Of a stretch of DNA of 64,000 bases, positions 54,950 to 62,229 are shown in pieces (position 1 is the stretch's first letter; each line of letters starts with the position of its first letter). This DNA comes from a bacterium (GTDB taxonomy: Bacteria; Desulfobacterota; Desulfocorpusculales; Desulfocorpusculum). The notes beneath the pieces were generated by a model. That model did not search any database and had not been told where the DNA came from. It was given only the letters and a program-made list of their open reading frames with translations. The stretch covers positions 1 to 64,000 of the forward strand of contig JBBFLE010000015.1 in assembly GCA_037481695.1 (NCBI GenBank), in the 5' to 3' direction. The position numbers were made by a program, and so were the translations under genes.

Positions 54950-56197
54950 ATGACATACAATCAACAGCCCTCTTCCAGAAACAGGTGGCTTCTTCTGGGA
55001 AGCGCCTTTTGCGTCATGATGGTCATAAGCATTTACCAGTATTCCTGGTTTCTCTTTGCAGACAGGATCCAGAAGGAACTTAACTGGAGCATGGCTTCTC
55101 TGGGACTGGTTTACACCATCTTTCACTATACCTCCACCTTGATACTGCCCTTCTCTGGGTTCATAGCGGATACCTACGGGCCTGTGCGAGTTGCCTTGGC
55201 AGCATCTTCTATGGTAGGGGCCGGCTTCATTCTTTGCGCCTTTTTCCCTGATCCTTGGAGCTTTCGCATCTTTTACGGCTTGGGGGGAATAGGCGGAGGG
55301 ATTCTGTACGGTCTTTCCACAGCCACTGCCATCAAGTGGTTCCCGGATAGGAGGGGCTTTGCCTCAGGCCTCGTTGTGTTCGGCTTCGGGGCAGGCACGG
55401 CCATCTTCAACCTGGTGATAGAATGGCTTCTGGAACACCGGGGGTTGTCCCTCACCATGCTTTGGCTTGGCATGGGCATGCTGGCCACACTCATACCTCT
55501 TTCAGTTCTGTACCGATATCCCAAGTCTTCTCCTCGAGTCGTTTCCCCTCAGGAGGCAGCCCCGGCTTTGCCTAGAAGCTACAGACCACTGGAGATGCTC
55601 AAGACCTACCAGTGGTATGTGATCTATTTCTCCTTCAGCCTCACGGTCTCTGTGGTGCTCATGTTCGGGGCACAGCTGAAGACCATGGCCCGGGATTACC
55701 AACTGCCTGATTCTTATTTCCACGCCCTCTTGGTGCTCTTTCCTTTGGCCAATGGCCTGAGCAGAGTCCTGGCCGGAGCGGTTTCGGACAGGCTTGGCAG
55801 GGAAAAAAGCATGGCTTTGTTCTACCTTCTCTTGGGAGGAAGCGTATGGGCCCTGCTGGGCTTGGGGAACATTCCACCGCTGTTTGTGACCTTTGTATTG
55901 CTGGCTTCCCTGATGGGAGGAGCTCCCTTTGCCCTTTATCCGGCCACCATAGGAGACTATTATGGGACCAAATATGCCACTGCCAACTACGGCCTCACCT
56001 ATACTGCCAAGGCCTGGGCCGGGCTCATCTCAGGGTGGCTAAGTGGATACCTCTTCAGCAGGTTGGGCTCCTATGAAGTGCCTCTTCTGACAGTGGCAGC
56101 AGGCAGCTTCCTGGCCGCCTTGCTCTCCAGTCCCCTCATACTCAAGCCTCCGAGCAGAAAGGTTTGCTCCAGCCCCCGCGGCGAAGAAGTGGGCTGA
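54950..56197 (+). CDS. MFS transporter (oxalate/formate antiporter-like)
   Basis: A 415-aa protein with twelve hydrophobic helices. QYSWFLFADRIQKELNWSMA in helix 1-2, GGIGGGILYGLSTATAIKWF with PDRRGFASGLVVFGFGAGT, and RVLAGAVSDRLGREKS between helices 8-9 mark the oxalate/formate antiporter group, which exchanges or imports small carboxylates. The substrate is unknown. The coding end overlaps that of leuD on the opposite strand by 56 nt. Confidence 0.85.
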   Translation: MTYNQQPSSRNRWLLLGSAFCVMMVISIYQYSWFLFADRIQKELNWSMASLGLVYTIFHYTSTLILPFSGFIADTYGPVRVALAASSMVGAGFILCAFFPDPWSFRIFYGLGGIGGGILYGLSTATAIKWFPDRRGFASGLVVFGFGAGTAIFNLVIEWLLEHRGLSLTMLWLGMGMLATLIPLSVLYRYPKSSPRVVSPQEAAPALPRSYRPLEMLKTYQWYVIYFSFSLTVSVVLMFGAQLKTMARDYQLPDSYFHALLVLFPLANGLSRVLAGAVSDRLGREKSMALFYLLLGGSVWALLGLGNIPPLFVTFVLLASLMGGAPFALYPATIGDYYGTKYATANYGLTYTAKAWAGLISGWLSGYLFSRLGSYEVPLLTVAAGSFLAALLSSPLILKPPSRKVCSSPRGEEVG

Positions 56198-56657
56198 GGC
56201 CTCCTGCCTCCACCAGCTCCATCATGAACCTGGGAAGGGGCTTGAAATTGTACGCTTCGCCTGTGCGCAGGTTTAACAAGAAACCCCGATCCAGCTCCAG
56301 ACGAACTGGATCTCCCCTCTGAATTCTCTGGGCAGCTTCTGGGCATTCCAAGAGGGGAAGCCCCAGGTTGAAGCCGTTTCTGTAAAATATCCTGGCAAAG
56401 CTCTGGGCCACCACAGCTGCTACCCCGAGGGCCTTGAGCACCCCGGGGGCATGTTCCCTGGATGAACCACAGCCAAAGTTCCTGCCTGCCACCACCAGAT
56501 CCCCAGGCCTCACAGATCTGGCGAATTCAGGATCCAGGTCCTCCAGACAGTGAGGCGCCAGGAGACTCAAGTCTGCAGTGGTGAGATATCTGGCAGGTAT
56601 GATCTGATCTGTGTCCACATCGTCTCCAAAGACCCAAGCCTTTCCTTCGTATTTCAC
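56142..56657 (-). CDS. leuD: 3-Isopropylmalate dehydratase small subunit
   Basis: A 171-aa swivel-domain subunit of isopropylmalate isomerase in leucine synthesis. [17 protein letters not shown] and [20 protein letters not shown] are diagnostic; the latter holds the substrate-binding SSRE. It is the last gene of the leu operon, 38 nt after leuC. The C terminus extends past the usual end and overlaps the MFS gene on the other strand. Confidence 0.93.
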
Positions 56658-56695: not shown

Positions 56696-57973
56696 TCAGG
56701 AGACCACCTCACCAGGGTGGGCTATTCTGCCTGCCACGGCAGATGCGGCTGCCACAGCCGGGCTGGCCAGATACACCTCACTGTCAGGGTGACCCATTCT
56801 GCCCAAGAAGTTCCTGTTGGTGGTGGAAACACATCTCTCCCCCTTGGCCAGTATGCCCAGGTGCCCTCCCAGACAAGGACCGCAGGAAGGAGGACATACC
56901 ACAGCGCCTGCCTCCAGGAAGACCTGCAGAAGACCCTCCTTGAGGGCCTGGGCATAGATTCCCCTTGTGGCCGGGATCACAAGGAGCCTGGTGGTTTCTG
57001 CCACCTTCTTGCCCGCCAGGACATGGGCGGCTGTCCTGAGGTCCTCCATGCGGCCGTTGGTGCAGGAGCCTATGACAACCTGCTGGATCTCCACCCTGTG
57101 GAATTCCTCAACGGGCCTCACATGGGAAGGAGAGTGAGGAGCTGCCACAACAGGTACCATGCCTGAGGTGTCATATTCCCTCACCTGTGTGTATTCAGCC
57201 CCGGGGTCAGCAGATAAGATCTCCCACTTGCCTGCCACGGCGTTGCCCAGGTAATCCAGGGTGATACGGTCCACATGGAAAAGACCTGCCTTTGCCCCTG
57301 CCTCTATGGCCATGTTGGCCATGGTGAAGCGGGCCTCCATGGAAAGGCTCTCCAAGGCCTCCCCATGGAACTCCAGGGCCATGTAATTGGCCCCGTCCAC
57401 CCCCAGATCAGCTATGGTATTCAAGATGATATCCTTTCCTGTGACCCAGGGGCCCGGTTTCCCATGGTATTGCAGCCTTATGGTGCCAGGCACCCTCAGC
57501 CAGGCCATGCCCGAGATCCAGGCAGCTGCTATGTCCGTGCTTCCCACCCCAGAGGCAAAGGCTCCCAAGGCCCCGTACGTGCAGGTGTGGCTGTCGGCTC
57601 CCAGCACCAGTTGACCGGGGCCCACCAAGGCCCTCTCGGGCAGCAAAGCATGGGCTATGCCGTCGGTCTCGAAATAGAGCTTGATGCCTTGCTCTCTGGC
57701 AAAATCACGGCTTTCTCTCACCTGCTCTGCAGAGGCGATGTCTTTATTGGGTGTGAAATGGTCCATCACAAGGGCTATTCTCTCGGGCCTGCAGACTCTG
57801 GTACCACCGGCCTCTTTGAATGCTCTTATGGCAAGGGGAGCGGTGATGTCGTTAGCCATGGTCAGATCCACTTGGGCTAGGATCAGCTCCCCAGGCTCCA
57901 GCTTCTGATCCCCTGCGTGGCGGGAAAGAATTTTTTCCGCCAGGGTCATTCCCGTTGGTTTTCTCCTGTGCAT
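56696..57973 (-). CDS. leuC: 3-Isopropylmalate dehydratase large subunit
   Basis: A 425-aa aconitase-type subunit. The Fe-S ligands lie in VIGSCTNGR and CPPSCGPCLGG; LGADSHTCTYGALGAFASGV and MTLAEKILSRHAG are family segments. It isomerises 2- to 3-isopropylmalate together with LeuD. The ATG at 57973 follows AAAGGGGAAGTTGGA; the frame continues to a GTG at 57991, which would overlap leuA. Confidence 0.93.
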   Translation of the reverse strand: MHRRKPTGMTLAEKILSRHAGDQKLEPGELILAQVDLTMANDITAPLAIRAFKEAGGTRVCRPERIALVMDHFTPNKDIASAEQVRESRDFAREQGIKLYFETDGIAHALLPERALVGPGQLVLGADSHTCTYGALGAFASGVGSTDIAAAWISGMAWLRVPGTIRLQYHGKPGPWVTGKDIILNTIADLGVDGANYMALEFHGEALESLSMEARFTMANMAIEAGAKAGLFHVDRITLDYLGNAVAGKWEILSADPGAEYTQVREYDTSGMVPVVAAPHSPSHVRPVEEFHRVEIQQVVIGSCTNGRMEDLRTAAHVLAGKKVAETTRLLVIPATRGIYAQALKEGLLQVFLEAGAVVCPPSCGPCLGGHLGILAKGERCVSTTNRNFLGRMGHPDSEVYLASPAVAAASAVAGRIAHPGEVVS

Positions 57974-57987
57974 TCCAACTTCCCCTT

Positions 57988-59526
57988 TCACATGTCTTCC
58001 TTTATCTTCACCGGGTAACGCTTCCTGTACTCCAGGCGGTTGAGAGCATTGACGTATGCTCTGGCACTGGCCACGATCACGTCAGGATGGGTGCCTTGGC
58101 CCACCACCTCATGACCATTGGCCTCCAGCCTCACGGTCACCTCACCCTGGGCATCAGATCCCCCGGTTATGGCGTTTATGGCAAAACGCTTCAGCCTCGC
58201 CTTTGCCCCAGCTATGCGCGCTATGGTCTGGAAGGTGGCATCCACCGGGCCAATGCCGAAGCCTGCCCCGGCGTGCTCCACTCCGTCTATCTCCAGCTTG
58301 ACGCTGGCGGTGGGCACGGTGACGCTTCCGCTTGTGACATGGAGATAGTTCAATTTGTACCTGGCCGGCATTCTCAAGACCTCGTCTTCCACCAGGGCTT
58401 CCAGGTCCTCGTCGTAAACATCCTTGTTTCGGTCAGCCAGGGCCTTGAAACGTTGGAAAACCCGGTCCAGGTCTTCGGGGGTGAGTTCATAACCCAGCTT
58501 TTCCAGCCTGTCCTTGAGGGCATGGCGGCCAGAGTGCTTTCCCAAGACCAGAGAGGTCTGGCCCCATCCCACGCTCTCGGGTCTCATGATCTCGTACGTG
58601 CTCTTTTCTTTGAGGATTCCGTCCTGATGGATTCCCGATTCATGGGAGAAGGCATTGGCCCCTACTATGGCCTTGTTGGGCTGGACCGGTATGCCGGTGA
58701 TGCGCGAGACCATGCGGCTTGTGGGATAAAGGTATTCTGTACGCACCCTGCTTTGCACTCCAAAGTGGTCAGACCTGGTCTTAAGGGCCATTACCACCTC
58801 TTCCAGAGCTGCATTTCCCGCCCTTTCCCCTATTCCGTTGATGGTGCACTCCACCTGTCTTGCTCCTGCCCTAACTGCTGCCAGGGAATTGGCCACAGCC
58901 AGCCCCAGGTCATTGTGGCAATGCACGCTCAATACCACCCGATCTATACCCCTTACCCTGGAGCGTATCTGGCGGATGAGTCCTGCGAACTCATCCGGCG
59001 TGGCATACCCCACTGTGTCTGGTATGTTCACGGTGGTGGCTCCGGCCTCAATGGCAGCCTCCAGAACCAGGAAAAGGAATTCCGGTTCAGTTCTAGAAGC
59101 ATCCATGGGAGAAAATTCCACATCAGAACACATGCTTCTGGCCAGGCGCACCATCTCAGTGGCCCATTGAAGCACTTCCTGCCTTTCTTTCTTGAGCTGG
59201 TGACGAAGGTGTATGTCCGAGGTGGAAAGAAATACGTGAAGCCCTGGCCGTCTGGCCTTCTTCACAGCCTCCCAGGCCCTTTCTATGTCTGCCCTTTCAC
59301 AGCGGGCCAGGGCCACCACCTTGGCTTCCTGAAGCCTTTCGGCTATTCTTCGCACAGCCTCAAAATCCCCTTCTGAGGCTATGGGAAAGCCGGCCTCCAC
59401 AGAATCCACTCCCAGCTTTTCCAGCTGCAGGGCCACCTGAATCTTTTCCTCGATGTTCATGGTGGCACCCGGAGATTGCTCTCCGTCCCTGAGAGTCGTG
59501 TCGAATATGCGTACATGCTCTTCCAT
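57988..59526 (-). CDS. leuA: 2-Isopropylmalate synthase
   Basis: A 512-aa DRE-TIM enzyme condensing acetyl-CoA with 2-ketoisovalerate, the first committed step to leucine. The motif FDTTLRDGEQSPGATMN opens the barrel, VLSVHCHNDLGLAVANSLAA carries the metal-binding HxH, and the C-terminal LeuA-dimer domain (VTVPTASVKLEIDGVEHAG) is the leucine-feedback site. It follows leuB by 11 nt. GGAGGGTGGGGC precedes the ATG. Confidence 0.93.
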   Translation of the reverse strand: MEEHVRIFDTTLRDGEQSPGATMNIEEKIQVALQLEKLGVDSVEAGFPIASEGDFEAVRRIAERLQEAKVVALARCERADIERAWEAVKKARRPGLHVFLSTSDIHLRHQLKKERQEVLQWATEMVRLARSMCSDVEFSPMDASRTEPEFLFLVLEAAIEAGATTVNIPDTVGYATPDEFAGLIRQIRSRVRGIDRVVLSVHCHNDLGLAVANSLAAVRAGARQVECTINGIGERAGNAALEEVVMALKTRSDHFGVQSRVRTEYLYPTSRMVSRITGIPVQPNKAIVGANAFSHESGIHQDGILKEKSTYEIMRPESVGWGQTSLVLGKHSGRHALKDRLEKLGYELTPEDLDRVFQRFKALADRNKDVYDEDLEALVEDEVLRMPARYKLNYLHVTSGSVTVPTASVKLEIDGVEHAGAGFGIGPVDATFQTIARIAGAKARLKRFAINAITGGSDAQGEVTVRLEANGHEVVGQGTHPDVIVASARAYVNALNRLEYRKRYPVKIKEDM

Positions 59527-59537
59527 GCCCCACCCTC

Positions 59538-60611
59538 CTATCCTCGATCAACTTTTTCCAGCAGCTCACAGACTCGGCTGCCCACCTCAGAGGTGGACAT
59601 CCCCATCTGTCCTGCACCCATTCCCTTGAGTTCTTTGACAACTGCCCTTACTGCTGCCTGGATTCTTCGGGCTGCGGCCTGCTCCCCCAGCTCTTCCAAC
59701 ATCATGGCCGCTGCCTGGATGGCAGCCAGGGGATTTATGACGCCCTTCCCAGCGTGTCTTGGGGAAGAGCCGTGAATAGGCTCGAACATGGAAACACCGC
59801 CCGGGTGTATGTTGCCAGAGGCTGCTATTCCGAGCCCTCCCTGTATGGCTGCACCCAGATCAGTGATGATGTCCCCAAACATGTTGTCTGTGACGATCAC
59901 GTCAAACTGCTCAGGGTTCTTGACCATCCACATGCAGGTGGCATCCACGTGGGCGTACTCGGTCTCCACGTCTGGATACTCGCTGGCCAGCTGATGAAAC
60001 ACCCGGTCCCAGAGATCAAAGGTATAGGTGAGCACGTTCTTCTTGCCGCAGAGGGTAAGCTTTTTTTTCTTGTTGCGCTTCCTGCTCAGTTCAAAAGCAT
60101 AGCGCAAACAGCGCTCCACGCCCCTTCTGGTCTGGATGGACTCCTGTATCGCCACTTCAAAAGGAGTCCCTCTTGCCATCACCCCACCGGCCCCGGTGTA
60201 AAGGCCCTCGGTGTTTTCCCTCACAACCACGAAATCGATGTCTTGAGGTGTCTTGTCCTTGAGGGGAGTCTCCACCCCAGGCAGCAGTTCCACAGGACGC
60301 AGGTTTATGTAAAGATCCAACTCAAATCTGATCCTAAGTAGAATCTCCTTCTCCAGAAGACCTGGTTTCACATCCGGGTGCCCTATGGCTCCCAGGTAGA
60401 TGGCATGCATCTCTTTCATCTTTTCCAGAGCCTCCCCGGCAAGGGTGACACCGGTGCGAAGGTAATGCTCCCCCCCAAAAGGAAACTCCGTTGTAAAGAG
60501 TCTAAAACCCTCCAGCCTCGATACTCTGGCCAGGACCTTCAGGCCCTCCTGCACCACCTCTGGTCCCACACCATCTCCTGGAATCACAGCCACTTTATAG
60601 GATCTTTCCAT
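59538..60611 (-). CDS. leuB: 3-Isopropylmalate dehydrogenase (LeuB-type decarboxylating dehydrogenase)
   Basis: A 357-aa member of the isocitrate/isopropylmalate dehydrogenase family. [17 protein letters not shown] is the N-terminal motif, [12 protein letters not shown] the substrate loop, [20 protein letters not shown] the metal site, and [20 protein letters not shown] the NAD-binding C-terminal part. Operon position directly behind the leucine leader strongly favours LeuB. Tartrate or homoisocitrate dehydrogenases of the same family are less likely. It is the first structural gene of leuBACD. Confidence 0.9.
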
Positions 60612-60654
60612 CTCTTTCCCCCAGCCCTTCGTTTTTTAAGGCTTCATCTTCCCC

Positions 60655-60685
60655 AAAAATCAAAAGCCGTCGGTTGCCCGACGGC
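60655..60685 (-). terminator. Second intrinsic terminator hairpin in the leu leader
   Basis: A perfect 8-bp stem GCCGTCGG/CCGACGGC with a 4-nt loop occupies 60666-60685, followed on the minus strand by TTTTGATTTTT (60665-60655). It lies about 20 nt beyond the first terminator and 45-55 nt before the leuB ATG. Two consecutive terminators within one leader would tighten attenuation, or the second could be a backup. Confidence 0.75.
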
Positions 60686-60691
60686 TCTTTC

Positions 60692-60729
60692 CCAAAAGAA
60701 AAGCCGCGGGCAAGCCCTTTGCCCGCGGC
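60692..60729 (-). terminator. leu operon attenuator terminator
   Basis: An 11-bp perfect stem GCCGCGGGCAA/TTGCCCGCGGC with a 5-nt loop occupies 60703-60729 and is followed on the minus strand by TTTTCTTTT. Its 5' arm (GGGCCGCGGGC, 60731-60721) is complementary at 10 of 11 positions to GCCCGCAGCCC (60778-60768) near the end of the leader-peptide coding sequence, which can act as antiterminator. Ribosome stalling at the Leu codons should favour that alternative pairing and allow transcription of leuBACD. Confidence 0.85.
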
Positions 60730-60752
60730 CCTGATTTTTTTTAGCTATTTTC

Positions 60753-60857
60753 TTACTTCACACCATGGGGCTGCGGGCTGTTGGTAAGGCTAAGGCCCAA
60801 AAGGAGCCCAAGCTCCTGTCCCAAAATGAGTCCCAACAACCTTTGGCCCTTTTTCAT
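60753..60857 (-). CDS. leuL: Leucine operon leader peptide
   Basis: A 34-codon frame starting at ATG 60857 with GGAAGG five bases upstream and ending TAA at 60755-60753. Ten codons are Leu, packed in RLLGLILGQELGLLLGLSL, using CTT, CTC and TTG. The frame has no other role visible and is followed by the attenuator hairpins and leuB. Leader peptides of this sort make operon expression depend on charged tRNA-Leu. I checked the frame codon by codon on the minus strand. Confidence 0.9.
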   Translation of the reverse strand: MKKGQRLLGLILGQELGLLLGLSLTNSPQPHGVK

Positions 60858-60886
60858 TTCTTCCTTCCAATACCCAGCCTGAGAAC

Positions 60887-60916
60887 ATCATAAGAGATGG
60901 CACGGCCCCGAGTCAA
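60887..60916 (-). promoter_or_regulatory. Sigma-70 promoter of the leu operon
   Basis: On the minus strand, TTGACT (60916-60911) and TATGAT (60892-60887) are separated by 18 bp; each differs from the consensus at one position. Transcription should start near 60880, about 23 nt before the leader-peptide ATG. The promoter lies immediately behind the mtaB stop codon, so the leu operon can be expressed independently. Confidence 0.8.
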
Positions 60917-60927
60917 GCCAGGAAATT

Positions 60928-62229
60928 TTACTTTGCAACCACCCCTGTCAGAAGACCCTCCCATGTGCCGGTGACCCGCACCTTCTGAATAGTATTACGA
61001 AGCTCTCCACCTCCTTGAACCACCACTCTGAAATAGTTATGACTCAGGCCCTCCATCCACCCGGGCCTGCCTTTGGAAGGTCTTTCCAGGAGAACAGAGA
61101 TGCTCTTGCCTACCCATGAAACCATGGCCTGGTGCCTCCTTGCCCTGGATAGGTCTCTGAGCACTGCTGCCCTTGTTTTCATCTCCCCTGGGGCCAGCTT
61201 GGGACCCATGGCATGGGCTGGTGTCCCAGGACGGGGGGAAAAGGGAAAGACATGGAGATACGTCCATGGCATGGATTCCAAGAAATTCAAGGTTTCCTGG
61301 AAGTGTTCCTCCTTCTCGCCTGGAAAACCTACCATCACGTCTGCACCCAGGCTCAGATGGGGCACTGTCTCCACAGCCTCCAGGATCCTGGATTCATAAT
61401 GGGCCTTTGTGTAAGGCCTTTTCATGAGTTTCAGCACCTCCCCGGAGCCGCTTTGGAGGGGCACATGGAGATGAGGACATACCCTCTTGTTCTGGGCCAT
61501 GAGCTGCAATAGCCCCTTTTCCAACTCCTGGGGCTCTATGGAACTCAGTCTTATGCGGGGGATGGTGCACTCCTGGAGAACCTGCTCCAGCAGTCTCAGC
61601 AAAGAGGTGGGAGGCTCAAGATCTCTACCATAGGAGCCCAGATGGATCCCTGTGAGCACCACTTCCTGGATGCCTGCTTTTTCCATGAGCTTGAGGGCCC
61701 TGGAGATGGAAGCCGGGGATCTGGAGCGGCTGCGCCCCCTGGCCTTGGGCACTATGCAGTAAGAACAGGCTCCATTGCATCCATCCTGCACCTTGAGAAA
61801 TGCTCTTGTTCTGCCTGGAATCCCTGCCAGCCTCTCCCCCCAGAGCAGCTCCTCCCGGCAGACTCCAGTTCCCTCCATGCCCAATCTGGCCAGTATTTGA
61901 TCCACCAGGGAGTCCTTGTTTTGGTTTCCCCAAACCAGATCCACCTCAGGCATGGCCTCCAGGCTCTGTGCGAAGACCTCTGCCTGGCAGCCTGTGGCAA
62001 CGATTAGAGCCTGGGGGTGCCTGGCCTTGAGGCTTCGGATCAACTGCCTGTTTTGCTTGTCCGTGGCAGATGTGACTGTGCAGGTCTGCACCAGGATCAA
62101 AGAAGGATTCAGGCCCTCTTTTGTCCTCTCCAGGCCTGAGTCCTCCAAGGCTCGGGCCAGAGATGCTGCATCGAACTGATTCACCTTGCAGCCAAGGGTC
62201 TTGATCAGAAATCCGGGCCTTTGTCCCAC
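60928..62229 (-). CDS. mtaB: tRNA (t6A37) methylthiotransferase MtaB
   Basis: A 433-aa radical SAM enzyme that adds a methylthio group to t6A37 of ANN-decoding tRNAs. The N-terminal UPF0004 domain has IKTLGCKVNQFDAASLAR and VATGCQAEVF (Cys ligands); QTCTVT supplies the third. The SAM cluster motif is GCNGACSYCIVPKARG, followed by VMVGFPGEKEEHFQETLNFL and a C-terminal TRAM-like region. TLGCKVNQ distinguishes MtaB from MiaB and RimO. The GTG start at 62229 follows GGAGGGGCT; a TTG at 62250 is an alternative. Confidence 0.9.
   Translation of the reverse strand: MGQRPGFLIKTLGCKVNQFDAASLARALEDSGLERTKEGLNPSLILVQTCTVTSATDKQNRQLIRSLKARHPQALIVATGCQAEVFAQSLEAMPEVDLVWGNQNKDSLVDQILARLGMEGTGVCREELLWGERLAGIPGRTRAFLKVQDGCNGACSYCIVPKARGRSRSRSPASISRALKLMEKAGIQEVVLTGIHLGSYGRDLEPPTSLLRLLEQVLQECTIPRIRLSSIEPQELEKGLLQLMAQNKRVCPHLHVPLQSGSGEVLKLMKRPYTKAHYESRILEAVETVPHLSLGADVMVGFPGEKEEHFQETLNFLESMPWTYLHVFPFSPRPGTPAHAMGPKLAPGEMKTRAAVLRDLSRARRHQAMVSWVGKSISVLLERPSKGRPGWMEGLSHNYFRVVVQGGGELRNTIQKVRVTGTWEGLLTGVVAK

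Follow-up and report, generated by a model that had tools for sequence, protein, structure and literature searches.

Does the leuBACD operon of this bacterium answer to leucine through a translated leader, and does its control region stand alone? Upstream of leuB in the window (the whole stretch of 64,000 nucleotides analysed here), the initial annotation had described a sigma-70 promoter, a leader of 34 codons (ten of them for Leu), an antiterminator strand at 60778-60768 and an 11-bp terminator with a T-run, and had read them as a classical attenuator, possibly in a deltaproteobacterium. The host genome does belong to Thermodesulfobacteriota, formerly Deltaproteobacteria. Both promoter hexamers with their 18-nt spacer lie on the minus strand where they had been placed, the leader ORF is preceded by a GGAAGGA site, 10 of the 11 positions of the antiterminator strand GCCCGCAGCCC pair with the 5′ arm of the terminator, and NCBIfam models identify leuB, leuA, leuC and leuD downstream (Table 1). 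The translated leader of 34 residues is MKKGQRLLGLILGQELGLLLGLSLTNSPQPHGVK.

The description of the terminator had to be amended. Terminator T1 and its T-run are real, with a stem of 12-14 bp, and a second terminator, T2 (60689-60662), which can pair with T1, had been overlooked. T2 lies between T1 and leuB and resembles T1, with one additional base in its 5′ arm. We therefore describe the region as segments 1 to 6, namely the Leu codons (1), the antiterminator strand (2), the arms of T1 (3 and 4) and the arms of T2 (5 and 6). The sequence allows the mutually exclusive pairings 2:3, 3:4, 4:5 and 5:6.

Table 1. Parts of the leader region and the genes downstream, in window coordinates.
Feature	Coordinates	Strand	Basis and remarks
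Promoter, sigma-70-like, TTGACT-18-TATGAT	60887..60916	minus	Sequence; -35 TTGACT kept in the G002 orthologue
-35 TTGACT	60916-60911	minus	
-10 TATGAT	60892-60887	minus	Spacer 18 nt
Leader ribosome-binding site GGAAGGA	60862..60868	minus	Sequence
Leader peptide ORF	ATG 60857 to TAA 60753	minus	34 codons, 10 Leu; homologues in G002 and G001
Segment 1, Leu control codons 7-24	60786..60839	minus	
Segment 1 core LGLLLGLSL, codons 16-24	60812-60786	minus	LLLGLSL unchanged in G002
Segment 2, antiterminator strand in the 3′ end of the leader ORF	60768..60778	minus	Sequence GCCCGCAGCCC
Segment 3, 5′ arm of T1, used by both 2:3 and 3:4	60720..60731	minus	
Terminator T1 (3:4)	60700..60732	minus	Stem 12-14 bp, then TTTTCTTTT; -25.5 kcal/mol
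Segment 4, 3′ arm of T1, able to pair with segment 5	60700..60713	minus	
Segment 5, 5′ arm of T2	60676..60690	minus	
Terminator T2 (5:6)	60662..60689	minus	Stem 12 bp, then GATTTTT (tail TTTTGATTTTT); -21.8 kcal/mol
leuB, 3-isopropylmalate dehydrogenase	59538..60611	minus	NCBIfam NF002898
leuA, 2-isopropylmalate synthase	57988..59526	minus	NCBIfam TIGR00973
leuC, 3-isopropylmalate dehydratase large subunit	56696..57991	minus	NCBIfam TIGR02083
leuD, 3-isopropylmalate dehydratase small subunit	56142..56657	minus	NCBIfam, LEUD family

The computational signature of an attenuator is thus present: an ORF with a ribosome-binding site, a codon run that matches the operon, an intrinsic terminator, and an antiterminator that excludes it. 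Judging from these elements and from the folding models described below, the region upstream of leuBACD is very probably a ribosome-mediated attenuator that senses charged Leu-tRNA and belongs to a Thermodesulfobacteriota family in which the sensor codons are swapped. Its response would presumably be to leucine.

Among the 706 window ORFs of 25-60 aa, two have at least 6 Leu per 10 residues, and the leader is the only one in which a dense Leu run is followed by a terminator. CTG is absent from its ten Leu codons, compared with a share of 43% in 7 window genes (P=0.004). The duplex of segment 2 with the T1 arm in the window leader alone gives p=0.023 against dinucleotide shuffles.

The class comparison comprised three genomes, namely the window's own (G000), G001 and G002. 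Both other genomes of the family carry a leader with T1 and T2, before leuB in G002 and before leuA in G001. In G002, the promoter, the leader MSMGPRGLRKMVERETILLLGLSLLQSPLSHWVMA, segment 2, T1 and T2 are all kept; the LLLGLSL core has CTC in place of TTG, a synonymous change, and one pair of the T2 stem is altered on both sides. In G001, ilvB directly follows leuA, and the leader MNQAVMSLQVTLILLLVVEVLLVLILRRDPPPG contains Leu, Val and Ile codons. Two further attenuators with T1 and T2 are found in the window's own genome: one before ilvB with the codons VISLVLIVV (L267, G000:C13:95265-96325), and one before a DAHP synthase gene with the aromatic leader GYFWGFYFYYWF (L365, G000:C3 near 224586). 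The DAHP synthase leader is also present in G001 and G002. In total, 6 of the 7 attenuators of this family have tandem terminators. At the DAHP synthase attenuator of G002 (L364), T2 has lost its 3′ arm, while the 4:5 complementarity is retained.

Upstream of leuB in the other relatives (L003-L110) no leader was found. Since leuB is apparently not the first gene of these operons, the search was shifted to leuA and ilvB. Scanning upstream of leuA revealed Leu leaders with T1 in all 5 genomes of family f30 and in single genomes of four other families (G128 in f32, G038 in f37, G283 in f67 and G177 in f74); G245 offers a weaker example. Many Thermodesulfobacteriota genomes have no such leader before leuA, perhaps because leuA is often not first in its operon. 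In most attenuators, segment 2 starts 26-30 nt upstream of the point where the leader ends.

In an alignment of 13 leu/ilv attenuators, 3:4 is paired in 100% and 2:3 in 86% of cells, the 2:3 counts given here being biased upward by the best-match choice of segment 2; the selection of leader ORFs by codon run likewise inflates the apparent pairing. Three pairs of 2:3 are altered on both sides, and its covariation score exceeds those of all 500 shuffles and all slides. Two comparisons had been proposed as checks on the attenuator reading, and both came out in its favour: the Leu codons are conserved in relatives with a variable flanking peptide, and the alternative pairings 2:3 and 3:4 both covary. 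Leader-peptide attenuation is well supported in silico. At one position, the 2:3 pairing is mismatched in 13 of 13 attenuators (segment-2 base 8 against T1-arm base 4, alignment A1 columns 8 and 19, near 60771 in the window). Possibly, this fixed mismatch keeps the antiterminator weaker than T1.

To follow the competition between these pairings, we modelled the position of the ribosome as a mask in partition-function folding. The isolated energies in the window are -22.5 kcal/mol for 2:3, -25.5 for T1, -23.9 for 4:5 and -21.8 for T2. A ribosome placed on any of the Leu codons except the last, with the polymerase just beyond segment 5, gives a predicted ensemble of 2:3 together with 4:5; placing it at the stop codon instead, with the polymerase at the same point, gives T1. 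Stalling leads mainly to 2:3 and 4:5 in 7/7 attenuators of the family once segment 5 has emerged, and a ribosome at the stop codon leads to 3:4 at that length in 6/7 and, in the seventh (G001 leuA), after T2 is complete. Without a ribosome, 2:3 forms in the window before segment 4 is out, and folding showed no stable 1:2 protector hairpin. At equilibrium with T2 fully transcribed, T1 and T2 are favoured in the window whatever the position of the ribosome, so the switch must be kinetic.

These models suggest the following scheme. When leucine is ample, the ribosome would reach the stop codon and, judging from the position of segment 2, would hide much of it; T1 would then form and stop RNA polymerase, and T2 would catch those polymerases that read through T1. 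When leucine is short, the ribosome would stall on the Leu codons and leave segment 2 free to pair with segment 3. Segment 4, thus released, would pair with segment 5, and both terminators would be disabled. The 4:5 pairing is a required part of the scheme, because otherwise T2 would stop transcription at any leucine level.

A simpler switch would have T1 alone regulated, with T2 acting as a back-up or pseudo-terminator and no coupled 4:5 pairing. T1 by itself has every part that is needed, and the Leu attenuators of f30, f32, f67 and f74 are recorded with one terminator each. Against this, an unregulated T2, with its 12-bp stem and U-run, would always block the operon. In addition, the 4:5 duplex of the window is matched by none of 500 shuffles of arm 5, and all 8 attenuators tested, including the one without a T2 3′ arm, retain 4:5 complementarity (-19 to -27 kcal/mol), which is significant against shuffled arm 5 in 7/8; this complementarity is partly a consequence of the resemblance between T2 and T1. 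At the DAHP synthase gene of G001, T1 lacks a U-run and only T2 has one, so that regulation there would need the 2:3/4:5 domino. We thus regard regulation by T1 alone as unlikely and favour the coupled pair of terminators for the window. The terminator arms of the window's family were set by hand. An automatic count gave tandem terminators in 22 of 83 attenuators; this figure is neither complete nor exact, since the hairpin finder often chose 4:5 over T1.

In order to survey the phylum, a covariance model (R1) built from 12 leu/ilv attenuators was searched in 297 Thermodesulfobacteriota genomes. Inspection of 79 new loci revealed a leader ORF with a sensor-codon run just 5′ of the terminator in 67, while about 12 have no convincing leader; some of the listed matches are the opposite strand of a genuine attenuator. 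A fixed codon-run criterion is satisfied by 61 of the 67, compared with 0.65% of random anchors. The first ~24 columns of R1 contain Leu codons, which would bias the model toward Leu leaders, yet most matches are aromatic. Where T1 is clean (60 attenuators), the duplex formed by segment 2 reaches significance in 51 cases (Fisher p ~1e-51 over all 60 against mononucleotide shuffles), the distance from stop codon to T1 is centred on 22 nt, and 56 leaders have TTGAC[AT] no more than 130 nt upstream, with 4.2 expected from shuffling.

Leader ORFs were chosen by codon run, blind to the downstream gene, and the downstream genes were clustered, with one representative annotated per cluster. The sensor codons agree with the downstream pathway, and no mismatched sensor was found among the genes of known pathway. 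Phe/Tyr/Trp runs precede 19 DAHP synthases, 13 ADH synthases (TIGR01949), 3 shikimate kinases and 2 aminotransferases; Trp runs precede 5 trpE genes and 1 trpD gene, and Ile/Val/Leu runs precede ilvB. A cobalamin riboswitch lies close to one aromatic attenuator locus (L348, 1493-1658).

Other targets are unexpected. Leu runs are found before a gene for the gamma subunit of a 2-oxoacid:ferredoxin oxidoreductase (PorC/KorC family; L301, perhaps also L286 and L293) and before four genes encoding a FabK-like or nitronate monooxygenase-like flavoprotein (L280, L281, L287 and L297), for which we know of no part in leucine synthesis. The Leu leader at L301 suggests that this 2-oxoacid oxidoreductase is tied to branched-chain amino acids. 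Aromatic runs precede three indolepyruvate ferredoxin oxidoreductase genes and three genes of unassigned role encoding an MBL-fold hydrolase (for example YLYYYYYY; L324, L329 and L341).

Common to these attenuators is a scaffold with the T1 core GGCCRYGGGC, a segment 2 that is nearly fixed in the end of the leader, and the constant 2:3 mismatch. We consider it probable that they form a modular, phylum-wide family in which one scaffold of segments 2, 3 and 4 carries differing sensor codons, with the tandem domino in a subset that includes the window. On the same reading, the targets are probably genes for leucine, isoleucine/valine, tryptophan and common aromatic synthesis, as well as the unexpected genes above. 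The initial annotation was right in kind; the attenuator that it took as an isolated case probably belongs to this phylum-wide family, whose sensor codons are interchangeable.

Could another kind of leucine-responsive RNA, either a T-box or a protein-bound or pseudoknotted LEU element as in Actinobacteria, account for the window element? In G026, which belongs to another Thermodesulfobacteriota family, a T-box does sit immediately before leuA (L361, G026:C12:288977-289198). T-boxes were found in 3 of 118 Thermodesulfobacteriota genomes and in none of G000, G001 and G002, the window's family. Rfam gave no match to Leu_leader (RF00512) or T-box (RF00230) in the window, nor in 60500-61100 (601 bases, E up to 10), and none of the related leaders matches Rfam. 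Moreover, a pathway-matched codon run plays no part in a T-box, and the intrinsic terminators speak against a pseudoknot of the LEU type. This explanation is therefore very improbable. An sX11 sRNA match in the Rfam search (24.4 bits, gathering threshold 70) was set aside as chance. Hardly credible is a third account, that the 3′ terminator region of mtaB, which ends at 60928 directly upstream of the leader region with no other strong terminator found before the leader, adjoins a chance Leu-rich ORF of the kind seen twice among the 706 ORFs: G002 retains the promoter, the ribosome-binding site and the leader, and the recurrence of the arrangement before leuA, ilvB and DAHP synthase elsewhere, with pathway-matched codons, contradicts it.

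A leader-peptide attenuator thus remains our reading of the leuBACD region. In the literature searched, leader-peptide attenuation of amino-acid operons was not found linked to Thermodesulfobacteriota; single delta-proteobacterial predictions may pre-date this analysis. Priority for some of them may rest with the comparative study by Lopatovskaya et al. (2010, Mol Biol 44:128), the one likeliest to have covered delta-proteobacteria. Leader-peptide attenuation has been described, on the basis of that study, as frequent across Proteobacteria (PMC4833913), and a 2013 Rfam-based survey proposed that gamma-proteobacteria may be where amino-acid attenuators arose and that transfers were very few (PMC3766115). 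The attenuators reported here occur in many families of a phylum distant from gamma-proteobacteria, have no Rfam match, and have leaders below the length of routine gene calling. They provide a predicted amino-acid-synthesis regulon for mostly uncultured anaerobes. As the codon run reports the amino acid that is answered to, it links poorly understood genes, namely those of the MBL-fold hydrolase, the FabK-like enzyme and the 2-oxoacid oxidoreductases, to aromatic or branched-chain metabolism.

Among known systems, the trp leader (trpL) shares with the window element the choice between 2:3 and 3:4 according to ribosome position, but the window element has no predicted stable 1:2 protector hairpin and has tandem terminators. 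The his operon attenuator follows a six-segment A-F scheme, with 1:2, 3:4 and 5:6 as one set of pairings and 2:3 and 4:5 as the other, and its sole terminator is the last hairpin. The window element resembles it in its predicted domino of alternative pairings across several segments: 2:3, 3:4, 4:5 and 5:6 are all present, and no stable 1:2 was found. In the his attenuator, an additional hairpin stands ahead of the terminator (PMC1183508), whereas the corresponding middle hairpin of the window type, T1, mostly has a U-run of its own, giving two terminators in series; the sensor codons are Leu in the window and His there. The enteric leuL (RF00512) likewise has a Leu-codon leader and a competing antiterminator and terminator with the leu operon downstream. 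It differs in that the window element has its segment 2 within the final codons of the leader as well as tandem terminators, and the control codons are TTG, CTT and CTC in the window element compared with the rare CUA of the Salmonella leu leader (cited in PMC1183508).

In the actinobacterial LEU element, too, a leader ORF containing a Leu run precedes a leu gene, leuA. That element is a candidate pseudoknot which pairs with the leuA ribosome-binding site, and classical attenuation is not believed to be its mode of action (PMC1262725), whereas the window element has intrinsic terminators and covarying 2:3 and 3:4 pairings. The leuA T-box of G026 controls the same gene at the RNA level and is presumably tied to tRNA-Leu charging, but reads uncharged tRNA directly, without a leader peptide. 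As leuA is thus preceded by a T-box in one family and by a leader peptide in others, replacement of the sensor becomes testable. Taken together, the mechanism is of the enteric leu, trp and his kind, and what is new is the common scaffold, in which the sensor codons are exchanged, together with the predicted linkage of terminators in tandem.
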